From assembly GCA_012862575.1 (NCBI GenBank), contig BLSF01000015.1, forward strand, positions 371,545-435,544: a stretch of 64,000 bases of DNA, given 5' to 3'. The stretch comes from Parietichytrium sp. I65-24A (Eukaryota > Sar > Bigyra > Thraustochytrida > Thraustochytriidae). Of the stretch, positions 22,733 to 56,440 are shown in pieces. The notes under the pieces are model-generated. The model ran no database searches. It saw only the letters and a list, made by a program, of their open reading frames with translations, and was not told the DNA's origin. A program made the translations under genes and the position numbers. How positions within the stretch are numbered: the first letter of the stretch is position 1; every line of letters starts with the position of its first letter.

Positions 22733-24814
22733 CTACTTGCGAGAAGTGGTCTTCTTGAAAGCAGGTATGCCTGGTTTTGGTGCCCTGGGACGCAGACGCG
22801 TCGCCTTGGTACTCCCGCGAACAGAGAAGCGCACTGGAATGCCTTCCAGGCTGAAGCGTTTTCGAAGGCTATGCAAGAGGTACCTCATGTAATCGTCCGG
22901 AATGACGTTGTTCTTCGGCTGGAAACGGTTCACAAAGAGAACAAAGCTCGGCGGCCGGGCACTGGGCTGTGTCATATACTTGATCCTCAGAGGGCCAGAC
23001 ATGACTTTCTTTTTGCGATAAGAGGCCCCACGATTGGCAGGCGGCGCTTGCTTGATCTGAGCCTCCTGAATCCATTGATTAAGCAAAGGCGTCTTGATCC
23101 GCGAGCACCACTTGTCGTAGACGTTGAAGATGGTGGGGAGCAAAGTCTCAGTGCTCTCTCGTTTCTCGGCGGATATCGGGACGATAGGCACACCGCGCGC
23201 GAGCGGGATCGAGTCCTCAAGCTGATCGCGGATGTACTTGACGATGGAACGCTGATTGTCGCTTGCCTCCCAGTCCATGTTGAAAAGATCACACTTGTTT
23301 GCAGCGATAACGAGCCCGCGACCCTCATCCAGAACGCGCGAGATGATGGACAGATCATGCTTGGTGAAAGCCCCGACAGCGTCAAGGTCATTCTGTTGCG
23401 CGGTGGCGTCAAGCATGAAGACCACCACTTGCGAGTAGTCCAAGGACTTGAGAGAATTTTGTATGGACATGTCTTCTAGCTTGGCATCGTTCTTTCGCTC
23501 CTGGGCAGATGTGGCACCGAATCCCCCCGCGACTCTTTCCACGCTCGCCATCGCGCTGCTCATGCCTCCGTACAGTTTTGTCCGGCGCCGGATTCCTGCC
23601 GTGTCTACAAGACGCAGCGGGCGACCTTGAAACGCCCAGTCGATCTGAATGGAGTCGCGCGTCAACCCCGGTATAGGGCCAGCAATACAGCGGTGCTCGC
23701 CCAAAAGTGTATTTACAAGAGTGGACTTTCCAACATTAGGTCTGCCAATAAGCGAGATCGTGATAGGCTGCTCGACACTCGGGCTGGCGGATGGCACAGA
23801 TTGCTCTCCCTCCGCAGACTCCTTGGCTAGCAACTCTTCCTTCTGAGCGATTTCTTGCTTGGCTTTGAAAACATCTTTCTCGCCTTGAAGAATCGCATAA
23901 GGCAGCAATGCGTTGTGTAGATCACCAATGGCGTGGTTGTGCTCTGCGGAGATCGGTATGGGATCGCCAAATCCGAGCCGATAACATTCTTGGAGAAAAT
24001 TTGCCCACGTGATGTCGGAGCCTCCCCAATTGAAGGCATCGCCGCTCGATTCAGCCTTGTTAGCAACGAGCACGAACCCGTTTTCTACCCAGTGCTTGGG
24101 CACATTATAATCCTCGTGCAGTCGATCTATCGTGGCTTCCAGTTGTGCATCAGAATACTCCCCCTTTGGGGTGTTTTTCTTGACCCACCTTGCGAGATTG
24201 ATGTCGTCTTCTATGATTCCCTCCTTGGCGTCAACAACTAACATGACGACGTCCGCGTCCTGTAGAGCTAGCCTCGCCTGTTCGTGCATGTGTTCCACAA
24301 GCATGCGGCCATGTTCTGGAGCAAGGTACTCTGTAGGAGATTTGCTTCCGTATTCAATATTTTCAAAACCGCCAGTATCCACGAGCTTGAACTTGAGCTC
24401 GCCCAGCTGCCCCTCGCCCTCTTTCCTATCACGCGTTGTCCCCGCAATATTGCTCACGATGGCGTCATTCTTCCTCACCAGCCTATTGAACAAAGTGGAC
24501 TTGCCCACATTCGGCCGTCCAACCACCGCAACCTTGATTTTCCCTAGCGTAAAGTCGTGTTTCTTCATGACCTCGCGTCGCTTTTGCCGTTCTCTTTTCT
24601 CCTGCCTTTTCGTGAGACTTTTATCGGCTGCGTTCTCATCTTCAACGCTGCTACCTTTCTGATTTAGACCTGAGCTGGAAGAAAACCTCACGTCCAAAGC
24701 CGGCCACGCAGAGCTCAGCTTCCAATGCGACGCTGTCTGGCGCCACGCCGGTTCTCCACCCAAGAACCGGGTCCCCGCCACCGGCAAGCCGCGCGCGAGT
24801 TTCCGGAGGAGCAT
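22733..24814 (-). CDS. der: Der/EngA-type double GTPase, organelle form
   Basis: A 693-residue protein with two tandem GTPase domains, diagnostic of Der (EngA), an assembly factor for the bacterial-type large ribosomal subunit. G1 motif GRPNVGKST occurs at about 99-107 and again at about 358-366. Each domain has its switch motif ([23 protein letters not shown]), G3 ([16 protein letters not shown]) and G4 (NKAE; NKCD). A C-terminal KH-like domain follows, with [11 protein letters not shown] near the end. It exceeds bacterial Der by about 200 residues: an N-terminal Arg/Ser-rich leader, a basic coiled stretch (about 60-90), and insertions in the second domain. In a eukaryote this points to import into plastid or mitochondrion; which one cannot be told. 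Start: the ATG at 24814. Confidence 0.9.
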
Positions 24815-26975
24815 TTTCACGCGAGTGTGAATTGTGTCTCGCTTTCCTGTGTGATTTGGACGTTCTGCACTCGCTCCCCACGCTCAGGAGGACCTGAACA
24901 ACAGTATGTATGTATGTATATATATGTATATATATTTCTTAGGCGCTTTGCTGTCCTCTTCCGGCTCCAGCGAGGACACTTTTCGCTTTCCCTTTGGGAG
25001 GTCCTCGGAAACCTAGACCTCCTTACCTCATTTAACTAGCCTCTGTGAACTCCGTTAACCTATGTTAACCTAGCGCCAGCGCCTCACCTTCGGAAAGGGT
25101 TCCGCAATACGAGGTTCTGAAAGAACGCTCGCTATTGTTCTCGGGGTCAGACCAAGAACCCGCTCAGTGGTTCCGGTTCCGCACATGATAGACTCTGTTG
25201 TAATTGGTAGTGTGACCTTATGAAGTGAGTAAGATGCTGAGGTGTGAAACTCGATCGAGGTTTTTTTAACCCAGGTGTTTCCGGGTGTCAGTAGGGTGTA
25301 CTAGCGCGTCGTGGGCCCCGTATACTACTGAAAGCGGATAGGTGAGCCGGTGCGGGTACGTAAAGAGAATGTGTTCAGCAGATTCAGTGGGATTGTGTCA
25401 ACTGTGTCAACGTAGAATCTCACAGATCCAGTTGGCACTTTCTTCACGGGTTTCAGAGTTGGCGCAGTTGGCGCTTTCTGCACAGATTCACAGGAACTCG
25501 CTGGTGCACGTTTTCAATTTGAGTTTTCCTTGATTGAACGACGAGAAGCTTTGGGCTAATTTTTTTAAACGTCAATCGCCAGTCCAGCACGATGCGTAGT
25601 GAATGCTAGTTCGGAAGCTGGTCTTGGGCGACTGATCGGCGGGAGGAGGAAGACGCCAGCTACGGGTATTGGCAGTAGATAGCGCATATGGCGGGAGGGA
25701 GGTAAGTTCGTGCACCTGCGAAGGGAAAGAGGCAAGAGCGAGGCGGAAGTTCGGAAAGAGAAGGAGCCCGGTGGCGTCACCAAAGAACTTACTTGAAGGT
25801 TTACGGGAGAACTGTGGCCGAGAGGCTGCAGGACGTACATGGACCAACTGCGGAGGACTACGAAACTCAAGAGTCGGTACATGGAACCTTCTAGCTAGGC
25901 ATTGGTGAAATTAGTGCGATTTGCAGAATCAGCTTTTTTTTTGCGAGGAGATAAACAAGAAGTACTTCCCGGAGTACTGGCGACGATTTTCTTGAGACAC
26001 TATTTGAACAGGGAGAAGTCAATCTTCTTCTTTTAGTTGAATCAATCAATTGAAATCAAGAGAAAGAAAAAGCTAAATTGCGAGAAAAGCTGTTCTGTAC
26101 TGAGTGCGCTTGACTTGTCGAGTTGTGGAGCGGAAGGAAGTAGGGGGAAGGAAATCAACAAGTTTCACGGTCAGTACAATCAACTAGCACGTTTCGGCTT
26201 TGGGGAAAGATCGAAGCTGTCAAGCACAGAGCGAAAGCAGAGTCGGGTCCGAGTCCTACGCACGAAGATTACAAATGGGCAACTGAGTACTACTCAAAAT
26301 TTGAAGTGACAGTTTGTTGCGCAAGTTATCGTTCGCTGGAGACGCTGGAGTGCTGAAAGAGAGCTGTCCAAAACCTTGCTTCCGTCCAGTATTACTATAT
26401 ACTTTACGCCGGTACTACAGACGCATCTGGGGGAAATCATTCTCACAAAGCTCTCTCGGGAATCGGAGTGCGGACATCGTACATCCTACCATTGACTATG
26501 TGACTCGTTTTCAATCATGATATTGTATAGAGCCTACCTACCGCAACGTAGAATCCCTACGCCCATCAGACACTCACGAGTTCGGATTGAAGCTGCCAGA
26601 TGGAGCGAAAATAATGTCAGTTATGCCGTGGGGAAATAATTAAAACTAACAGTGACACTTGCGCCTTGAAAAGCGAATCCCAAAGTTCGGATTTCGCGGG
26701 AGTGCGTATTAGCGGTTACTTCCTGCTAGGCGTCCCTCTAGGTTCGGAAATTTGCAGATTTCGACGAATTATGAGAAGGAGAGGCGTACGGTTTTTTCCA
26801 GCAAGAAGGAGTGTACCAGCTTTCTAACTTGCCGAGCTATTCTAAAATGACTTGTTTTTCCTACCGCATTTAATAATCTTTTCATAGGACGCACCATGTC
26901 TTGATTCACTGCACCACTTATCTACAAGAACCCGGGGAGTCCTCCGGAAGCCTTTTTCTGCTCTGGTTATAGAAT

Positions 26976-44378: not shown

Positions 44379-45929
44379 ATGGATACAGAGCTTGCGAACG
44401 GCGGCGCGGGGCAGCTCGGGCAGAAAAAGTATGGTAGCAAATTGGAGTTTGCTGGGACAGTCTCGCTGAAGGGCGGCGCTGGGAAGAGCAAGAAGCCAAA
44501 GGACAAAAGGGATCTGGATGAAGGCAGCAGTCCGCAGCAGGGAGGAAGTATCCCAAAGAAGGCCAAGACCATCAAAGCCAAGAAAGCTGGGCAAGGCAGC
44601 AGGGTGCAGCCTTCAGAGTGCTTGGAAATCACAACAGGGAAGGTTCGTAGCAAACTGTCCAATCTAAGTCCGATCGCGATCACCGATATCATGATGGTTC
44701 TAAATGCGACCATGAAATCGCAGGAGGACATAGCCGATGGGACGGAGTTGCTCCTAAATCCCTCAGAGTCCTTTGCTACCGTGGATACAAGGCAACAAGA
44801 GTGCGAGCCCGACACCAGCGTATGTTTAAAAATATGGTATGGCAACACCGAACGGCACATCCGTGAATCTACGCTCGAGAAAATTTGCTTGATGCGTGGC
44901 AAGGAGTGCGCAGTGAAAGGGCTCCCAGAGCTTTACTTTGCGGGTCGCACCGCCTCGGGATATCCCGCGGTGGTGTTGAGCTCCATTGGGACGCCGCTGA
45001 ATACAATTCGTCGCGAGCTCTCGACGAGGTTTATACAAAACGTTGTTCAGGAAGCCAGCAGGACTATCGACCAACTGGAGCGAGCCGGAATTGTTCACAG
45101 AAATATCAAGCCAAACAACATTCTGTACAACGAGCGCACACGCACCCTGAAGATAGTGGACTTTTGCAACGCGTTGCTGTTATCGGAGAACAGTTCACTC
45201 AATGTGCCTATCGAGCGCACCAGCCCGGTATTCGCGGCCACCGCAGAGCTGGTGAAATACGGCGAACACAACGCCCTTGACGATTTAGAATCGTTACTTT
45301 ACACAGTCGTCTTCTTGTGGGGGGACGGGTCCGCAGCATTTAGGCGCAACATGGGCCAGTTCCGTGAGCTGTTCAAACACCGTACGGAGAACCGGCACGT
45401 TTTTGTTGAAATTTTGGAGAAGAGAGTTGAAGTTATACACGACGTCGTTTACAACAGTCCGCTGACCCGATTCTGCACAAAACTTATACAGCAGCGTTTC
45501 AACGACGTACACTCTCGCGCTTCCCATGCCTTGGAATTCGTGAAAACTCTCATGGTGACTCCCAGTATACCACGGAGCGTGTCCCAGCCTTTGCCGGTCA
45601 CCCATGGCCCAAATAGCCCCGCTGGTCCTAGTCCCACATTCCCAACGCCCCCTCCGCTGGGTCAGCCCGTTCAGCCTAATCCGATGGTCGGAGCGGCGCC
45701 AGGCGGTATGATGCAGCAAAGTATGTATATGTCTGGTCCACAGTTTCATGGCGCAGGCGTCCACGGGCCAGCAGGGAATAGCATGCCATTCCATCCCGGT
45801 ATGCCCAACAACGGCAACAATCCGAGAAGTAGCTTCCAACAACAAAGTGCAGATGATGACGACGACAATGATGATGATGATGATGACGACGATGATGACG
45901 ACGATGACAATGATGATGAAGACGACTGA
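44379..45929 (+). CDS. Kinase-fold protein, probable pseudokinase
   Basis: A 516-residue protein. N-terminus is basic and Gly/Lys-rich (about 1-75). A protein-kinase-like C-lobe spans about 200-390: subdomain VIb reads VHRNIKPNNILY (His240-Arg241-Asn242), so the catalytic Asp of HRD is Asn; the metal-binding motif is DFC (Asp261), not DFG; and DDLESLLYTVVFLWGDG resembles the subdomain IX DDLES helix of CK1- and FunK1-like kinases. I see no clear glycine loop in the N-lobe. Loss of the HRD Asp suggests a pseudokinase or weakly active enzyme. The C-terminus is Pro/Gly/Met-rich and ends in a run of about 25 Asp/Asn/Glu residues. The ATG at 44379 is the first in frame. Confidence 0.72.
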   Translation: MDTELANGGAGQLGQKKYGSKLEFAGTVSLKGGAGKSKKPKDKRDLDEGSSPQQGGSIPKKAKTIKAKKAGQGSRVQPSECLEITTGKVRSKLSNLSPIAITDIMMVLNATMKSQEDIADGTELLLNPSESFATVDTRQQECEPDTSVCLKIWYGNTERHIRESTLEKICLMRGKECAVKGLPELYFAGRTASGYPAVVLSSIGTPLNTIRRELSTRFIQNVVQEASRTIDQLERAGIVHRNIKPNNILYNERTRTLKIVDFCNALLLSENSSLNVPIERTSPVFAATAELVKYGEHNALDDLESLLYTVVFLWGDGSAAFRRNMGQFRELFKHRTENRHVFVEILEKRVEVIHDVVYNSPLTRFCTKLIQQRFNDVHSRASHALEFVKTLMVTPSIPRSVSQPLPVTHGPNSPAGPSPTFPTPPPLGQPVQPNPMVGAAPGGMMQQSMYMSGPQFHGAGVHGPAGNSMPFHPGMPNNGNNPRSSFQQQSADDDDDNDDDDDDDDDDDDDNDDEDD

Positions 45930-46733
45930 TCGCTCGATACTGCGCGTTTTTCTTTGACTTGCCTCTCCAAACAGAAGGCAAGCAGGCAGGCATCTCCACT
46001 TTAATATTATTTGTTGACTAAGTTAGAACATAACTGCAAGACCTTTTGTTCTCGTTCCTCTCCATCGCCGAATTGTCTCTACTTCTTTCCTTATTAATCG
46101 GCGCTTTCGCACGGCTGATTCCAGTGAACATGCAATTCTACAATTGTCAGCGAACTCGGCTACTCGCACTGACACTGTTGACATTGACCGCAATTGCACA
46201 AGCATCAGTGATTGAGGATCCTTCCGGGTCTGTCTGACCCTAACTTCCGTCATAGACTTCTTTACCAAGTGGAAGAGCTTGAATAGATTGAATAGGGCGA
46301 GACCAATAAAAACAGTCATTCACTGTCAAGCAAAATCCAAGTCCACGAACAGTCGACCGGACCCTGTACTCTGTACTCTGTACTCACTCTCAGTACTCGA
46401 GTACTCCGTACAGACAGTGCGAGTACCTGTTCCCGTACGTCCTTTTCGTAGCGGCTGGGCGCCTTGGCACTGCGGCTCTGTGCCCCTGTGGCTCTGTGGC
46501 TCTGTGGCACCTCTCTTCTCTCGCGCACAGTCGGCTGGACAGGCTCTGCCGTACAAGCGCGGTGTACTCGCGAACGTTCATCGGTTCGCGTCGCAGCTCG
46601 TCTCGTCAGTGCGCTTGGCTCGGCATCGAGAGAGAGAGAGAGAGAGCGGGAGACGTGCGTGCTTGTGGCTTGTGGCAATAGTAGAAAGGGAAAAAGGGGG
46701 ACAGTTTTCTTTTGCCAGGAAAGGGCCGGCACC
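45930..46733. other. Intergenic region upstream of the PFK2-like gene
   Basis: 804 bases between two forward genes. Includes ATTCACTGTCAA (46318-46329, motif variant), CTGTACTCTGTACTC repeats (about 46,367-46,386), GTGGCTCT repeats (about 46,486-46,505), and a GA run (46628-46647). No gene is seen. Confidence 0.6.
46628..46647. repeat. (GA)n microsatellite in PFK2-like leader
   Basis: About ten GA units, 87 bases upstream of the start codon, on the sense strand. Confidence 0.9.
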
Positions 46734-49184
46734 ATGGCGGAAAAGGTGTTGCAAAGCTTTGTGAACCGCGCGGACGTGGCGAAGGAGGTATGCAGATTCT
46801 GCTTGGTGGAGAAAGATAGCGCCAAAGTGCTGGCAAGCGTGTCTACGAAATTGGGCGAGTGCGGAGTGAACATTGTGAGCAACACGAGCAAGGTGCGCGG
46901 CACGCTGTGCTTTCAGGTGCTGGATTTGGAGGTGCGAGATGATCAGCGACAGCAGATGCTCGAGCTCATTGAGAGCATACCCGGCGTGGCGAGCTGTTCG
47001 ATCGGGTCTTTCAGCTCGGAGACCGGCGCGATTTATATGGAAAATGTACCTGTGCGGCTGTGTATTATCACCGTGAATGCTCCCGGGGTGCTTGGAAAAG
47101 TCTCCTCTCTGGTCGGCGTGCAGCTTGGCCTCAAGATCTTTTCCCACGTGAACCGAAGCAGTGGAAAAGTGGCCTATAACGTCTTCGACCTAGAAAACAG
47201 CACAGACACAGACTGGGACGAAATCTGCAAAACCATCGAGTTGACTCCGCAGGTGTACTCGTGCTCTGTGGGGCATTTTAGCAGTGGCGAAATCGCAGGC
47301 GTGTCCGCCAAACGGTTCTCCTCGGCAATGTCAACTTACTCGTTTGATACTGGCGCAGACAGCGAGACGGAGGACGCCGGATCTGTGCGATCATTCCCTT
47401 CCTCCGCCAGGCGAACGACGCGATCGGTGAGCGCGCACAACATCATGGAGAACAATCCGATGACATACTTTCGCAGCCCATCAGCCTCAAAAGAGTTTGA
47501 CGTTCTTCTTTCGCCGACTCCCGAAGAAGCCTGGCTAACCGGTGCCAGTGATCCGCCATCTCCAGCGCTCACCCCAAACACGCCAGAGAGAGAGAAGGGA
47601 GAGGGCTACTACGACGACGGGAGCAAAGAGACGACAAGATCTCGCAAACTGGCGATTATGAACGAAAGGACGCATCTCACGCGAGACGCCGCAAAACTCG
47701 TTATCGTCATGGTGGGCTTGCCTGCTCGAGGCAAGTCCTTCACAGCTCGTAAACTCAAACGCTTTTTGAACTGGAGGAACAGGGTCGTGCGGATCTTCAA
47801 TGCGGGGAGATACCGCAGGGAGCGGTCTACGAGTGCGGACCAGGTGCCGACGCCAGGCGATCGAGCAGATTTTTTCGGCAGGGGAAACGAGGAGGGGAAA
47901 AAGGTGCGCCAAGAGGCTGCCGATCGGGCTCTTAAGGATTTGCTGTCCTTTTTACGCCAGGAAAAATCTGCTGCGGTTGGGATTTTCGATGCCACAAACA
48001 GCACGCAGTCCCGCAGAAGATGGATTCTGGAACAGTGCGAAGGTCTAGCAAGCGTGGTGTTTATCGAAGTCATTTGCGACGACGAGGAGGTTTTGAACGA
48101 GAATTTGTTGGCAAAGATTAGGTCTTCTCCCGATTTTGCCGGCATGGATGAGAAGACCGCGTTGGAGGATCTCAAGGTGCGGATTAACAACTACGTGGAG
48201 ATGTACGAACCCGTGGACGAAACGTCATTATCTTTCATCAAGGTATACAACATGAGTACCAAAATCATGGCGAATCGAATATATGGTCGGCTTGCGCGCT
48301 CGATCTTGCCCTACATGCTATCTCTACATATCGCTCTTCGTCCCGTCTGGTTTGTGCGGGCTGGCCTGGCGGAGGACTCGAGAATTAGCGTGAACCCAGA
48401 GTACGACTTGCTGGATCCATCAACGGAGTCCAAGGCTTCGCGCCTCAGCGATCTTGGTGAGTCGTTTTCTAAAAAGCTCGCAAACTGGATCCAGACAGCG
48501 CTTTGGCTCCGAGACAGTGGGAAGGAAGACGGCGAGGTTACAGTGAAGCGTGAAATCTCTTCAGACTCCTCGGGATCGTTCACCAACTTGGCTGACCGCC
48601 ACCTTGCAAGCGCATTCACATCGAACGAGGATGTGCAAGATTCCGAGACAAAGGACCCGCGAAAGATGTTCGACCGCTGCGACGAGGAAATTGTGGTGCG
48701 CCGCGGCGACGGAACGCGGGCAACTGGCGCAGTGCTAAAGGTCCTGTGCTCTACTTTGCCCCGGGCCGAGCAGACCGCCCAAATTGCATTGAGTGGGCTG
48801 GATGATTTTAATCTTGCAGAGGCTGTACCAATGCTCAACCCTCTCGACAAGGGCGAGCTCGCTGGTCTGTCCATGGAGGAGATCAAGAGGGACCACTCGT
48901 CGTTCTACAAGATCTGGGCGCAAGATCGCTACACCCACCGCTTTCCTGGCGGGGAAAGCTATCACGACTTGGTGGCTCGGCTGGAACCCGTTCTAATCGA
49001 GATCGAGCAGCAGACTGCCCCCGTTCTGGTTGTGTCTCACGTTTCCTGCATCCAGACGCTTTTGGCATACTACCTGGGGATACCCGTGCAGCAAGCCATG
49101 AAGATTAGCGTCCCAATGCACAAGGTGATCGAGGTGCTTCCGACCATCGGCGGCTCTTGGGAAATGAACCTCTACGACGTCTGA
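46734..49184 (+). CDS. 6-phosphofructo-2-kinase homologue with two ACT domains and a degenerate phosphatase domain
   Basis: An 816-residue protein. Two SerA-type ACT domains fill about residues 15-90 and 100-185 (second: RLCIITVNAPGVLGKVSSLV). A Ser-rich linker follows. The 6PF2K domain (about 320-535) has Walker A GLPARGKS at 328-335, FNAGRYRRE, IFDATNSTQSRRR, and the VICDDEEVL and KIRSSPDF blocks, so it should make fructose 2,6-bisphosphate in the cytosol. The histidine-phosphatase domain (about 538-815) retains LPRAEQTA, FPGGESYHDLVARLEPV and His769 in VVSHVSC. The RHGE motif is VRAGLAE with Ala543 for the phosphohistidine, and the CEGL acid position reads LAGL with Ala710. The phosphatase is therefore probably dead. 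ACT domains usually bind amino acids, hinting at nitrogen or serine control (inference). The ATG at 46734 sits in ACCATGG. Confidence 0.9.
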   Translation: MAEKVLQSFVNRADVAKEVCRFCLVEKDSAKVLASVSTKLGECGVNIVSNTSKVRGTLCFQVLDLEVRDDQRQQMLELIESIPGVASCSIGSFSSETGAIYMENVPVRLCIITVNAPGVLGKVSSLVGVQLGLKIFSHVNRSSGKVAYNVFDLENSTDTDWDEICKTIELTPQVYSCSVGHFSSGEIAGVSAKRFSSAMSTYSFDTGADSETEDAGSVRSFPSSARRTTRSVSAHNIMENNPMTYFRSPSASKEFDVLLSPTPEEAWLTGASDPPSPALTPNTPEREKGEGYYDDGSKETTRSRKLAIMNERTHLTRDAAKLVIVMVGLPARGKSFTARKLKRFLNWRNRVVRIFNAGRYRRERSTSADQVPTPGDRADFFGRGNEEGKKVRQEAADRALKDLLSFLRQEKSAAVGIFDATNSTQSRRRWILEQCEGLASVVFIEVICDDEEVLNENLLAKIRSSPDFAGMDEKTALEDLKVRINNYVEMYEPVDETSLSFIKVYNMSTKIMANRIYGRLARSILPYMLSLHIALRPVWFVRAGLAEDSRISVNPEYDLLDPSTESKASRLSDLGESFSKKLANWIQTALWLRDSGKEDGEVTVKREISSDSSGSFTNLADRHLASAFTSNEDVQDSETKDPRKMFDRCDEEIVVRRGDGTRATGAVLKVLCSTLPRAEQTAQIALSGLDDFNLAEAVPMLNPLDKGELAGLSMEEIKRDHSSFYKIWAQDRYTHRFPGGESYHDLVARLEPVLIEIEQQTAPVLVVSHVSCIQTLLAYYLGIPVQQAMKISVPMHKVIEVLPTIGGSWEMNLYDV

Positions 49185-51294: not shown

Positions 51295-54200
51295 TCAGAA
51301 TTTCCTGTTTGCGCGATACCAGCGCTGAATAGTAGTTAATGACTGGCCGAGCCTTTTATCAGAAGCAAACGCAAGTCCACAGACATAGAAAAACCCACTC
51401 TCTGACTTGCAAAACGCCCTGTAGAGCGTTTCGAACAGATGTTCAGACACGATCGCCACAACCTTATCAAAAATGTCAAGTCCGGGCTTCAAGAGTTCCT
51501 CTTTAACTTGCCTCTTCACTTGTGCAGGTACGCACACCAGAAGCGAAGATGCCACGAATTTGTGGTAAATCTCGCTAACCTGAAAGGAGTATTTATCTTC
51601 CAGTGTTCCGCTTTTACAAAACGGGCACTCTGCTCCTACGGCGGCCCAGTCTTCCCCTCCGGCAGCGAGCCGCAAACGGCTTATGGTGCTCCTGCACCCT
51701 TGGCAGTACAGCTCCTCACCACCATTCGCCTCGTTGAGTTGGCGGACCTGATTGCAGAATTGAGTCAAATGGTGACCTTGGTGTCTGCGGGCAAAGTTTT
51801 CAAATAGTTTCCAGCCCGTCTGGCTATCCGCTGTGAGTGCTAGAAATATGTTGAAAGATGCGATTGTTTGGTGCAGGGATGCTTTGCTCTTCAGCCTCAA
51901 GCTCAAGGCTCGCCTCACCCTTTCCTCCGTCAGGGCCACCTTGGCCAACTCAAAATCTTCTATGGCGTGCTCATGCCTCTTCAGCTGTATGTGCTTGGTG
52001 CCAAGATTTGCGCGCAAAAATGAGGCGTCTCTCTTCAAAATCTCTCGACCTCCTTCGAACTGCTCCATCCGTTTCAATAAGTCGGTGAAGGAAGCAACTA
52101 TTCTGGTACGCACGGCCGAGTCAGGAGCAAGGGTAGAGCCTTGACAAATTTTGAATGCCTCTTGAACGGTTTCAATAGCCACTTTGAACTGCTTCAGTTT
52201 TGCATGGCCATCAGCCATGACATAGATGGGGAACAAGTAGATCGGGTCGCTCTCTTTTTGTAACGCCTTCTTCTGCATGCTCAAAACTTGCTCTGCGAGC
52301 TTGATTCCCTCCAGCACCTTGGGCGGTTCACTCAAGGGGTTGAGTACTAAGAGTTTGGCAAGCTCCAGCTGCACTGGGAACACGTGCAACCTCTCAGGGC
52401 ACGCATTAGCATCACAGTCCCACTGAGCCTCTAATACCCGATCCCGCCCCCTCATCAGTCTTGCAAGTGTTTTTGCCCGTTCTTGATCATCTCCCAGATC
52501 GTCCATGTCCAGACTGATCCTTTCGCAAACCTTTGCTAGAACCATCGTGTCAAGGCAATCCCTTGCAACGGCCGCATCTCTGTCAAGTTGACGTTGTATT
52601 TCGCCTTGGGCCTGAATATTCTCCAGTCGGTGAACCCTGTCCGACAAGGTTCTTTGCGGAGCTCTATCGGCCTCTCTTTGGAGCTCTAGAAGATGATCGC
52701 GTTTGTCTGCTAACGACAGATTTGCTTTTGCAGCAGCAAAGTGCATCTTCTTTGAAAGTGCTTCGGCATTGTCGTGAATGCCTCTCGCAGCCTCACTCAA
52801 ACTGAGCATTTCGATTGGTTTTGGAGCATTTCCAATGGCTCTTGGGTCAAGGGAAGAAAATTGGAGCAAAGGTTGCGCGCCAGGGTCAGTGCCACTAACG
52901 ATCGGGAGATGGTGTGCTCGCTTAGAACCCGAAGCATGGTGTATCTCCCAGCATCGCACGCAAAAGTGACCGCAGCACTTTGCGCAAAACGCCCAGCTTG
53001 GCACGCTGTTTTTGATGCGCGTCGAGGCTCTTTTCTTGCACAGCCAACATTGGTTCTGTTTTACGCTCTCCGGTTTTGGCAACGGCAACTGTGTACAGAG
53101 CCTACGCTTCGTTTCGTTCACAAGTTCAGCCAGATCCTCGACTTTATTCAAGTCCAAAATTCGATTGGCGTGCTCTTCGTCAAGGCAGTAGTATAGCCCA
53201 TAAGCAACATGTCCAGTGCCGAATTCCGCAGCCTCAAACAACTTGGCAACATCCACGCGAGAGCTGTCCGCCAATAATAAGCCGGCACTGAGCCCGCCTT
53301 CCGAAGCGTAGCTAGGGCGGGCACCTCCGGCGAGAAGAATTTGGATCACAGGATACACCCCTGATATCGTGGCGTGCATAAGCGCGGTGAGGCCGTCGTT
53401 GTCACAAATCTCTAGATCAGAGTCCATGCCGTGCACGAGACAGCATATGGACTTGATGTTGGCGACTCGAACGGCGTGAATTAAAGTAGTGAATCCGGTA
53501 GAGTTTTGTCGATTAACATCCGCACCAAGCTGCGCTAATTTAATCATCAGGTCTATTTTGCCGTAATGTGCAGCATACAGCATCATCGTCTCTCCCTCGG
53601 GGGTTTCGTGATCCACGCTGCACTCTCCGACGCCCACTAAATTTATGAACTGATCAACGTCATGGGTTCGGACAACGTCGTTACAGCGCCTCTCCCCTTC
53701 AAAAACGGAAGCTGCCCGTTTGGAGGCGAACGAATTCTGTCGATCTGCCACCCAACCAAGGTGTATGGATTTCTGAAACTTCACTTGTTCCAGGTACTTT
53801 GCCAACTTCCACTGTCCAAATTTCCAAGCTATTCCAATAGCTCCGCACTCCGGATGCGCGGGATCTTCCCCGCAGGAGACATCAGCGCCATGATCTATCA
53901 ACAGTTGTGCGCACTCTAACTTTAGAGAGAAGCTGGTGGAACACTGTTCCAAGTACGAGAGACCGTCCTTGTTTCTCCGATTCAGGTCCGGTTTGGCGTC
54001 ATGAATCAAGGTCAACGCGAGTGGATCCAAGCGCCCGTGGCGCAAGGCGGTTGACAGAGCAGTTTGCCCGTCCGGCAACTCAAGGTCTACGTCGGCTCCA
54101 TTTCGAAGTAGCGCCTGGACCACTGTAAGGTTGTCGCATGAGCAAGCCAACACGAGAGGGGACATTCCGGTCTTCTTGGTGATGAGGTTCACGTTGGCGC

Positions 54201-54600
54201 CAAGCGAAATGAGCTTCTCCACATGTGTAATTTCCCCAAACGTCACTGCTCGCAAGAGACTGGTCGAGCCGGCGGCTGTTTCAAGGTTTGCACTTGCGCC
54301 AAGGCGGATGGCCTCGCATATTTTCACAAAGTCGTATCTAACGATGGACTCCTCGAGCCCTTGACAGGCATCTTCGAATCGCTTCTTTCCGTTTCCCGCT
54401 GTCTGCCTGCCCGTCTTGCCAGCCTTCCTGCAGGCCAGATACTCCTCCAGCTTCGCCTCGATGTCTTGCTCGGAGTGGGCTTCCCGAAGTCTTGCCGCCA
54501 GCGCCTCCAGTCGGTCGCACCCTGTCAAACCCGGCGTTGCAGTGCTCCGTCCCACGGCCTTGAGCGCATCGCGCACCTCCACCAAACTAGTCCAGTCCAT
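51295..54600 (-). CDS. Ankyrin-repeat protein with B-box-like zinc finger, TPR-like helices and IQ-like tail
   Basis: A 1101-residue cytosolic protein. Ankyrin repeats fill about residues 90-465 (for example LISLGANVNLITKKTGMSPL and LLRNGADVDLELPDGQTAL). A zinc-binding module follows at about 517-565: CWLCKK, then CAKCCGHFCVRCWEIHH and a final HH, a CxxC-CxxC-CxxC-H-H pattern like a B-box. A long helical middle (about 600-760) leads to TPR-like repeats (about 765-920). A second zinc-binding motif, YCQGC with CPFC 26 residues on, lies at about 967-995. The C-terminus (TIQRWYRANRKF) resembles an IQ calmodulin-binding motif. It is probably a scaffold for protein complexes; partners unknown. The ATG at 54600 opens MDWTSLVEVR. 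The gene lies 196 bases from the convergent acidic-protein gene. Confidence 0.75.
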   Translation of the reverse strand: MDWTSLVEVRDALKAVGRSTATPGLTGCDRLEALAARLREAHSEQDIEAKLEEYLACRKAGKTGRQTAGNGKKRFEDACQGLEESIVRYDFVKICEAIRLGASANLETAAGSTSLLRAVTFGEITHVEKLISLGANVNLITKKTGMSPLVLACSCDNLTVVQALLRNGADVDLELPDGQTALSTALRHGRLDPLALTLIHDAKPDLNRRNKDGLSYLEQCSTSFSLKLECAQLLIDHGADVSCGEDPAHPECGAIGIAWKFGQWKLAKYLEQVKFQKSIHLGWVADRQNSFASKRAASVFEGERRCNDVVRTHDVDQFINLVGVGECSVDHETPEGETMMLYAAHYGKIDLMIKLAQLGADVNRQNSTGFTTLIHAVRVANIKSICCLVHGMDSDLEICDNDGLTALMHATISGVYPVIQILLAGGARPSYASEGGLSAGLLLADSSRVDVAKLFEAAEFGTGHVAYGLYYCLDEEHANRILDLNKVEDLAELVNETKRRLCTQLPLPKPESVKQNQCWLCKKRASTRIKNSVPSWAFCAKCCGHFCVRCWEIHHASGSKRAHHLPIVSGTDPGAQPLLQFSSLDPRAIGNAPKPIEMLSLSEAARGIHDNAEALSKKMHFAAAKANLSLADKRDHLLELQREADRAPQRTLSDRVHRLENIQAQGEIQRQLDRDAAVARDCLDTMVLAKVCERISLDMDDLGDDQERAKTLARLMRGRDRVLEAQWDCDANACPERLHVFPVQLELAKLLVLNPLSEPPKVLEGIKLAEQVLSMQKKALQKESDPIYLFPIYVMADGHAKLKQFKVAIETVQEAFKICQGSTLAPDSAVRTRIVASFTDLLKRMEQFEGGREILKRDASFLRANLGTKHIQLKRHEHAIEDFELAKVALTEERVRRALSLRLKSKASLHQTIASFNIFLALTADSQTGWKLFENFARRHQGHHLTQFCNQVRQLNEANGGEELYCQGCRSTISRLRLAAGGEDWAAVGAECPFCKSGTLEDKYSFQVSEIYHKFVASSLLVCVPAQVKRQVKEELLKPGLDIFDKVVAIVSEHLFETLYRAFCKSESGFFYVCGLAFASDKRLGQSLTTIQRWYRANRKF

Positions 54601-55096: not shown

Positions 55097-56440
55097 TTAC
55101 TCCGCAGGAGTGATAGCAGCATCATCTTTGCCAATGAAGGCAACGCTGCCACCGTGCTCGGACGCATCGAGGCCAGCCTCCTCCTGCTCTGAGGAAACAC
55201 GGAGCAGACCAACCTTCTTGAGGATGAAGAAGACTGGAGCGCAGGTGACTGCAACCCAGACAATGATGCAGAGAAGTCCGATGAGCTGGGTAGCGAAGGC
55301 GATTCCACTGGTGTTTCCAGGGCAGTCAGCTCCGTAGGTCAGTGCGATGTTGTCTGGAGTTGCAAAGATTCCAACGCTGAGAACGCCCCACATTCCAGCG
55401 AATCCGTGGACTGCGATAGCATCAACAGGATCATCGATCTTGAGCTTGAGCATGAGCTTGGAGGAGGCAATGTAGACAATAGCGCCAATAACTCCAATCA
55501 CAATGGCAGAGTAGTCGTTGACAACTGGGCAAGGAGCGGTGATGGACACGAGTCCAGCCAGAGCGCAGTTGAGTGCCATTCCGATGTCGTACTTCTTGAA
55601 GACAGCCTTGCCAATGATGATGCCGGTCACAACAGCAGCAGCTGGGGAGAGTGTGGTGGTAACTGCGACCTTGGAAGCGGTAGCACCATCGAAGAGGAGG
55701 GTGGAACCGCAGTTGAATCCGTACCAGCCGAACCAGAGGATGAACACTCCAAGAGTCTGAAGCGAGATGTTGTGTGGAGGCATCGACTGTGGGACACCCT
55801 CGCTGTCAAAGCGTCCGAGGCGTGGTCCGAGGATCAGGGCCGCGAAGAAGGCAGCAACACCTCCGGTCATGTGCACGACACCGGATCCAGCAAAGTCGAA
55901 CATTCCGCATCCGCCCTTCTCAGCAAAAAGAGGGGAGCCGTCCTCAGGCTGGAAGGCGGAGAGCCAGCCGCCAGTGGCCCAGATCCAGTGGGTGACAACT
56001 GGGTACACGAAGGCGGTGAGGTAGACTGCGATGAGGAAGTAACCGAGGAGATGGACACGGCCGGCAACAGCTCCAGAAACGATGGTAGCTGCGGTGGCTG
56101 CGAAAGCGAACTGGAAGAAGAAGAATGCGCGGTCGGAGTTCTCCATGTCCTTGTTCACAAAAGGTCCGGTGCCGATGATAGCGTTGTCTCCTCCGAAAGC
56201 AAGGCCATATCCGAGGATGTAGTAGCAGATCGCTCCGATGGAGATGGTTGAAATGTTCTTGAACATGATGTTGACAGCGTTCTTGTGCTGCACGGAGCCC
56301 ACTTCAAGCATGGTAAATCCGGCGTGCATGAAGAACACAAGGAATCCCGCAATCAGGACCCAGATGTTATCCGCGGACGCTTTCAAGTCCTCCGCGAACG
56401 CGGCGATGTCCGCGATGGTTGAGTTCTCGTCGAGTGACAT
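55097..56440 (-). CDS. AMT: Ammonium transporter, Amt family
   Basis: A 447-residue plasma-membrane channel/transporter with about 11 hydrophobic helices. Family blocks: GFTMLEVGSVQHKNAVNIMFKN near residues 41-62, the DFAGSGVVHMTGG signature with Asp182 and His190, and AIAVHGFAGMWGVLS with His345. The two histidines match the twin-His pore pair of AmtB (His168, His318). It should take up ammonium/methylammonium for nitrogen assimilation. The C-terminus is short (about 45 residues) with acid and Ser residues, as in regulated AMT tails. Two-fold codons end almost always in C (AAC, TTC, TAC), a bias stronger than in neighbouring genes and typical of high expression. The start is ATG at 56440. 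Confidence 0.95.
   Translation of the reverse strand: MSLDENSTIADIAAFAEDLKASADNIWVLIAGFLVFFMHAGFTMLEVGSVQHKNAVNIMFKNISTISIGAICYYILGYGLAFGGDNAIIGTGPFVNKDMENSDRAFFFFQFAFAATAATIVSGAVAGRVHLLGYFLIAVYLTAFVYPVVTHWIWATGGWLSAFQPEDGSPLFAEKGGCGMFDFAGSGVVHMTGGVAAFFAALILGPRLGRFDSEGVPQSMPPHNISLQTLGVFILWFGWYGFNCGSTLLFDGATASKVAVTTTLSPAAAVVTGIIIGKAVFKKYDIGMALNCALAGLVSITAPCPVVNDYSAIVIGVIGAIVYIASSKLMLKLKIDDPVDAIAVHGFAGMWGVLSVGIFATPDNIALTYGADCPGNTSGIAFATQLIGLLCIIVWVAVTCAPVFFILKKVGLLRVSSEQEEAGLDASEHGGSVAFIGKDDAAITPAE

Follow-up and report, generated by a model that had tools for sequence, protein, structure and literature searches.

A predicted tandem ACT-PFK2/FBPase2 fusion with a degenerate bisphosphatase domain in Parietichytrium sp. 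I65-24A

What would a 6-phosphofructo-2-kinase/fructose-2,6-bisphosphatase (PFK2/FBPase2) be doing if it carried two ACT-fold domains at its N-terminus and had lost the residues with which such enzymes hydrolyse their own product? This question is raised by a gene at 46734..49184 (+ strand) of a 64,000-nucleotide stretch of DNA, here called the window, from the thraustochytrid Parietichytrium sp. I65-24A (assembly GCA_012862575.1, contig BLSF01000015.1, positions 371,545 to 435,544 of the forward strand). The balance between glycolysis and gluconeogenesis is set in eukaryotes by a central signal, fructose 2,6-bisphosphate, and PFK2 is known to be controlled by phosphorylation, by expression and by glycolytic metabolites. 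An ACT-fused, kinase-only PFK2 would wire an amino acid directly to this signal. With moderate confidence, we read the window protein as a one-way, kinase-only PFK2 that is under amino acid control, most likely by L-serine.

The gene is a single unbroken frame of 816 codons that has its sole stop at the end and requires no intron to encode an 816-residue protein, with 16-37 stops present in each of the five remaining frames over the same interval. The start ATG lies at 46734 (context gccggcaccATGg); an upstream in-frame stop ends at 46451, and the interval between this stop and 46734 contains no in-frame ATG. A Pfam profile search of the whole protein, together with structure modelling, gave a domain order in which two ACT-fold domains are followed by a disordered linker, then by a 6-phosphofructo-2-kinase domain and lastly by a fructose-2,6-bisphosphatase fold (all features of this gene are on the + strand). 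The ACT-ACT-PFK2/FBPase2 fusion with a degenerate phosphatase that had been described in a sequence-only reading of this DNA is confirmed at the level of sequence, with the two ACT-like domains ahead of the PFK2 and histidine-phosphatase domains borne out by Pfam, by self-alignment and by fold models.

We compared the C-terminal domain (48336..49181) with that of human heart PFKFB2 and with those of the genome's own paralogues L001, L002 and L004. Its fructose-2,6-bisphosphatase fold is supported by alignment, by a structure match and by Pfam, where His_Phos_1 matches residues 669-804 with an E of 1.5e-23, which places it among the histidine phosphatases. As the sequence-only reading had noted, Ala543 (48360..48362) replaces the phosphohistidine His of RHG, giving RAG, and Ala710 (48861..48863) replaces the acid Glu, while the second His (His769) and the substrate Arg (Arg677) are retained. 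In the rat enzyme, His258 and Glu327 are presumably the catalytic His and the acid Glu. Ala546 is also found in place of the Ser that PFKFB2 and all three paralogues have two positions past the Gly of RHG. The domain is furthermore more degenerate than was first described. Specifically, the residue after His769 is Val770 (the pair at 49038..49043), where PFKFB2, L001 and L002 have Gln and L004 has Arg; Ser549 stands at the Asn of RHGxSxxN and Ser-Lys-Ala (566-568) at GGD, both relative to the three paralogues alone since this stretch of PFKFB2 was not in the comparison; and a low-confidence insert of about 66 residues (599-664; 48528..48725) is seen by model and alignment. At least six active-site positions are altered, and the bisphosphatase chemistry is predicted to be gone. 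Note that PDB entry 2bif is, by its title, an engineered H256A mutant, the same His-to-Ala change as Ala543.

The kinase domain (residues 317-533; 47682..48332), delimited by Pfam 6PF2K and alignment, matches its profile with an E of 2e-62 and scores 210.9 bits, where the cut-off is 27. It retains a Walker A sequence (GLPARGKS) with Lys334/Ser335, Arg361, which we take to be the fructose-6-phosphate Arg, and Asp419 of DATN, and we assume that the Walker A Lys/Ser and this Asp act as they do elsewhere in the family. The earlier description of the kinase domain as complete holds for the profile score and for these residues, with one qualification: the Lys of human PFKFB2 'EVKVSSPD' is Ile462 in the window protein. 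The domain is preceded by a Ser/Thr/Pro-rich linker (47280..47681) that is predicted to be disordered, with a predicted local distance difference test score (pLDDT) <50 over residues 183-317. Several Ser-Pro/Thr-Pro sequences and an Arg-Arg-Thr-Thr-Arg-Ser stretch occur in this linker and are possible phosphorylation sites adjoining the kinase.

The N-terminal part contains ACT1 (residues ~18-92; 46785..47009) and ACT2 (residues ~105-182; 47046..47279), the former located by Pfam, profile search and model and the latter by profile search and model. The Pfam match of ACT_4 to residues 27-87 (E 3.1e-5, 25.0 bits in the whole protein) is below the cut-off of 27, and ACT2 is weak in Pfam by itself (E 0.06). 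We therefore describe these domains as ACT-fold and SerA-like, and not as Pfam members. They align with each other at 33% identity (E 4e-12) and, on this alignment, are a duplication. Models of both have the beta-alpha-beta-beta-alpha-beta order of the ACT fold, with lower confidence for ACT1 than for ACT2; the 16 SerA rows used for the model of the pair aligned to ACT2, which left almost no aligned relatives for ACT1. When a joint profile of the two domains was searched against the PDB, all nine of the nine matches were D-3-phosphoglycerate dehydrogenase (PGDH; SerA) and no other ACT family was matched. A further profile search, with alignment A2, is not counted here, since SerA sequences made up 13 of the 15 rows of that alignment. 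By its joint profile the ACT pair resembles the serine-binding ACT domain of SerA, and this resemblance is why the unspecified amino acid ligand of the sequence-only reading is narrowed here to L-serine.

How PGDH binds serine has been described for two bacteria: the E. coli enzyme uses His344 and Asn346 from one subunit together with Asn364' from its partner, and the M. tuberculosis enzyme uses Tyr461, Asp463 and Asn481' (excerpted text of PMC6300728). For comparison we used the 44 loci of a SerA search, 21 of which (L009-L029) span the ACT region and supply the residue columns, while the 23 that fall short of this region (L030-L052) were dropped from the residue comparison. The corresponding alignment (A5) holds 18 of the 21 ACT-spanning loci and the genome's own PGDH, with the near-duplicates L011, L023 and L024 excluded. 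The position of E. coli Asn346 is Asn in all 21 bacterial SerA loci, and that of Asn364 is Asn in 20 of 21. At the three serine-contact positions ACT1 has Glu26, Asp28 and Asn46, and ACT2 has Thr113, Asn115 and Lys134. Thus ACT1 retains the serine-lid Asn364 as Asn46 (46869..46871) and has Asp28 (46815..46817) at the position of E. coli Asn346 and M. tuberculosis Asp463, and ACT2 retains Asn346 as Asn115 (47076..47078) and has Lys134 (47133..47135) substituted for Asn364. If the two domains were paired side by side as in SerA, one E. coli-like composite site would be formed by Asn115 and Asn46, and the other interface site would hold Asp28 and Lys134, which could neutralise each other. Such complementary loss could be the pattern expected of a duplicated, fused dimer, and L-serine is the likeliest of the ligands that can be predicted for the pair. 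A Lys at the lid-Asn position, as in ACT2, is also present in one bacterial SerA ACT domain (L027:2413-2649, +). A tree of ACT domains was discarded, as the row for the genome's own aspartokinase was out of frame, that for its own AHAS was missing exon 1, and support is weak for a domain of 70 residues.

These features are congruent with a mechanism in which the kinase would make fructose 2,6-bisphosphate without being able to hydrolyse it, and the paralogues that bear RHG would remove it. ACT1 and ACT2 would pair side by side and bind one L-serine between Asn115 and Asn46, in the manner of E. coli SerA Asn346/Asn364'. Serine binding would alter the kinase, most likely by lowering its activity, with activation by serine also possible, and the dead phosphatase may have been kept as a dimer or regulatory scaffold. 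Fructose 2,6-bisphosphate would in turn activate the animal/fungal-type ATP-dependent PFK1 of this genome. Low serine would then lead to more fructose 2,6-bisphosphate and to more carbon reaching 3-phosphoglycerate, the start of serine synthesis; because serine synthesis branches from glycolysis at this metabolite, inhibition of PFK2 by serine would complete a feedback circuit. A more specific proposal, which we advance tentatively and hold to be somewhat unlikely, is that of a single-chain L-serine sensor, derived from a duplicated SerA-type ACT whose copies lost opposite halves of the site, that directly sets fructose 2,6-bisphosphate in an enzyme made irreversible by loss of its phosphatase. 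If true, glycolytic flux would answer to serine by way of the PFK2 signal and not through pyruvate kinase or PGDH alone. One possible use would be as a glycolytic switch that responds to an amino acid.

Several observations weigh against a serine-tuned kinase. Ile462 lies between Lys461 and Arg463 at a position that is Lys (presumably Lys174 in rat numbering) in PFKFB2, L001 and L002, and Arg in L004. The His344-equivalent, where His, Tyr or Asn is expected, is changed in both ACT domains, to Glu26 and Thr113, and the mutual pairing of ACT1 and ACT2 is not settled by the model (predicted template modelling score, pTM, 0.51); for these two reasons serine is held to be only the likeliest ligand. 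The main warning comes from a purified fungal PFK2 of the RAG type, PFK2-B, for which neither activity was measurable according to the excerpted text of PMC9721465. This result, together with the dead phosphatase and Ile462, would fit a protein that is a pseudo-enzyme throughout, sensing an amino acid and regulating other PFK2 isoforms by hetero-dimerising with them. We consider that very unlikely, given that Walker A, Asp419, Arg361 and the 210.9-bit kinase score are all intact and that basic residues flank Ile462, which we do not take as the mark of a dead kinase because Lys and Ile come in this order in plant F2KP too. Moreover, from a double-deletion strain the authors of the fungal study conclude that PFK2-B may have some kinase activity, at a low level (PMC9721465, same excerpt). 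That the fusion is an artefact of the gene model, with the ACT and PFK2 parts being separate genes or the Ala changes being sequencing errors, is highly improbable: the evidence is genomic and comes from a single genome, but the 816 codons are free of stops in the linker as elsewhere, while every other frame has 16-37, and the altered phosphatase positions number at least six and not one.

The two remaining alternatives keep the kinase and differ in what the ACT pair does. A ligand other than serine, be it a different amino acid or a 2-hydroxy acid, would account for the changed His344-equivalents and for Lys134 in place of Asn in ACT2. Precedents for different ligands include AHAS ACT domains solved with valine (titles of 6vz8 and 5ypp) and two Arabidopsis PGDHs that are inhibited by L-serine yet activated by 'l-amino...', as the truncated text of PMC5471267 has it. 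Both paired Asn positions nevertheless persist, one per domain, and the two-domain profile matches no other ACT family in the PDB, so that we regard this possibility as unlikely. Alternatively, the pair may bind no ligand and serve to dimerise or position the kinase. ACT domains can act mainly in subunit association, and each domain agrees with E. coli SerA at just one of its three contact positions. However, at the two Asn positions each domain has kept what the other has lost, and neither the Asn-x-Pro-Gly block in ACT2 nor Gly-Val-Asn-Ile in ACT1 is disrupted, which makes a purely structural role quite unlikely. The kinase-biased enzyme tuned by a small ligand that was originally put forward is still the best reading of the domain anatomy, now with L-serine as the likeliest ligand; its activity, its binding and a raised level of fructose 2,6-bisphosphate are the parts that we infer.

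The genome (42.5 Mb in 172 contigs) contains at least three further PFK2 genes (L001, L002 and L004), as the paralogue search scored the best candidates only. RHG is retained in all three, and no ACT part is present in their open frames. One of them (L001:1333-2787, +) has Asp at the acid-Glu position (FDGM) with RHG and the second His intact; plant F2KP has Asp at this position as well. Matches to PFK1 converge on a single locus of the tandem two-domain type, with liver-type PFK as its top match in the PDB, followed by yeast PFK subunits. This PFK1 is probably of the animal/fungal (opisthokont- or amoebozoan-) type, and PFK1 of the animal/fungal type is activated by fructose 2,6-bisphosphate. 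FBPase1 matches lie on two contigs. The red-algal setting assumed by the sequence-only reading is not supported: besides the tandem PFK1, neither the light-harvesting nor the phycobilisome-linker family had a match in the 42.5 Mb (0 each), where the control Synechococcus was positive for both. The genome is probably that of a non-photosynthetic eukaryote. For an oomycete setting, a search for elicitin gave no match, a weak absence given that the controls were silent as well; for a holozoan one, integrin beta had no match in the genome or in the controls. A fusion of triose-phosphate isomerase to GAPDH is a stramenopile marker; neither of the two triose-phosphate isomerase frames found continues into GAPDH.

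Elsewhere in the window, a kinase-like protein with weak Pkinase and Pkinase_fungal matches is encoded just upstream (44379-45929, +) and ends in a long Asp-rich tract that derives from an imperfect GAT/GAC array. Downstream are a 1101-residue protein that combines ankyrin repeats with an RGS domain at its C-terminus (51295-54600, -) and an ammonium transporter (55097-56440, -), which lies within a few genes of ACT-PFK2 and whose proximity may be chance. A bacterial-type ribosome-assembly GTPase, an EngA/Der-type double GTPase with a KH-like C-terminus that is possibly mitochondrial, is encoded at 22733-24820 (-) of this genome, in which the light-harvesting family had no match.

How does this protein relate to known systems? 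The sequence-only reading was not aware of an ACT-fused PFK2, and none was found in the open-licence PMC literature, as judged by titles and the starts of abstracts, nor was a paper found there on fructose 2,6-bisphosphate in red algae; eukaryote sequence databases lie outside that scope, as eukaryote collections do for two scans of viral contigs that gave no ACT-PFK2 relatives. Relative to the PFKFB or PFK2/FBPase2 family (animal PFKFB1-4, plant F2KP, fungal PFK26/FBP26), the window protein adds two N-terminal ACT-fold domains, lacks the bisphosphatase catalytic set and has an extra insert in the phosphatase. Its predicted one-sided loss has parallels in fungi: every yeast PFK2/FBPase2 isoform is missing one of the two activities, and one subfamily of fungal enzymes has Ala in place of the RHG His (excerpted text of PMC9721465). 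Like the monofunctional S. cerevisiae PFK26/PFK27 and M. thermophila PFK2-B/C, as far as the same excerpt describes them, it would have lost one activity; most of those isoforms, like the window protein, keep both folds. Unlike the fungal RAG subfamily, for which that excerpt makes no mention of ACT domains, it is also altered at the acid Glu, at GGD and at the Asn and Gln positions. Phosphatase loss, including that of the RAG type, is thus already known in fungi, and it is the ACT fusion, not found in print, that is the new part. The nearest family of the ACT pair is type II PGDH (SerA, Ser33), with which it shares the paired Asn positions, here kept across two domains; it differs from SerA/Ser33 in being a tandem fused to PFK2 instead of a dehydrogenase and in replacement of the third-contact His/Asn. 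Two ACT domains and a catalytic domain are likewise joined in one chain in the tandem-ACT phosphoserine phosphatase SerB2 of mycobacteria, whose catalytic domain is unrelated to that of the window protein. The pair has a precedent in this enzyme for tandem-ACT serine binding, with serine at an ACT domain in a solved structure (title of 5jlp). On its domain anatomy we place the window protein within the PFK2/FBPase2 family, as a variant that bears a putative regulatory pair of SerA-like domains.
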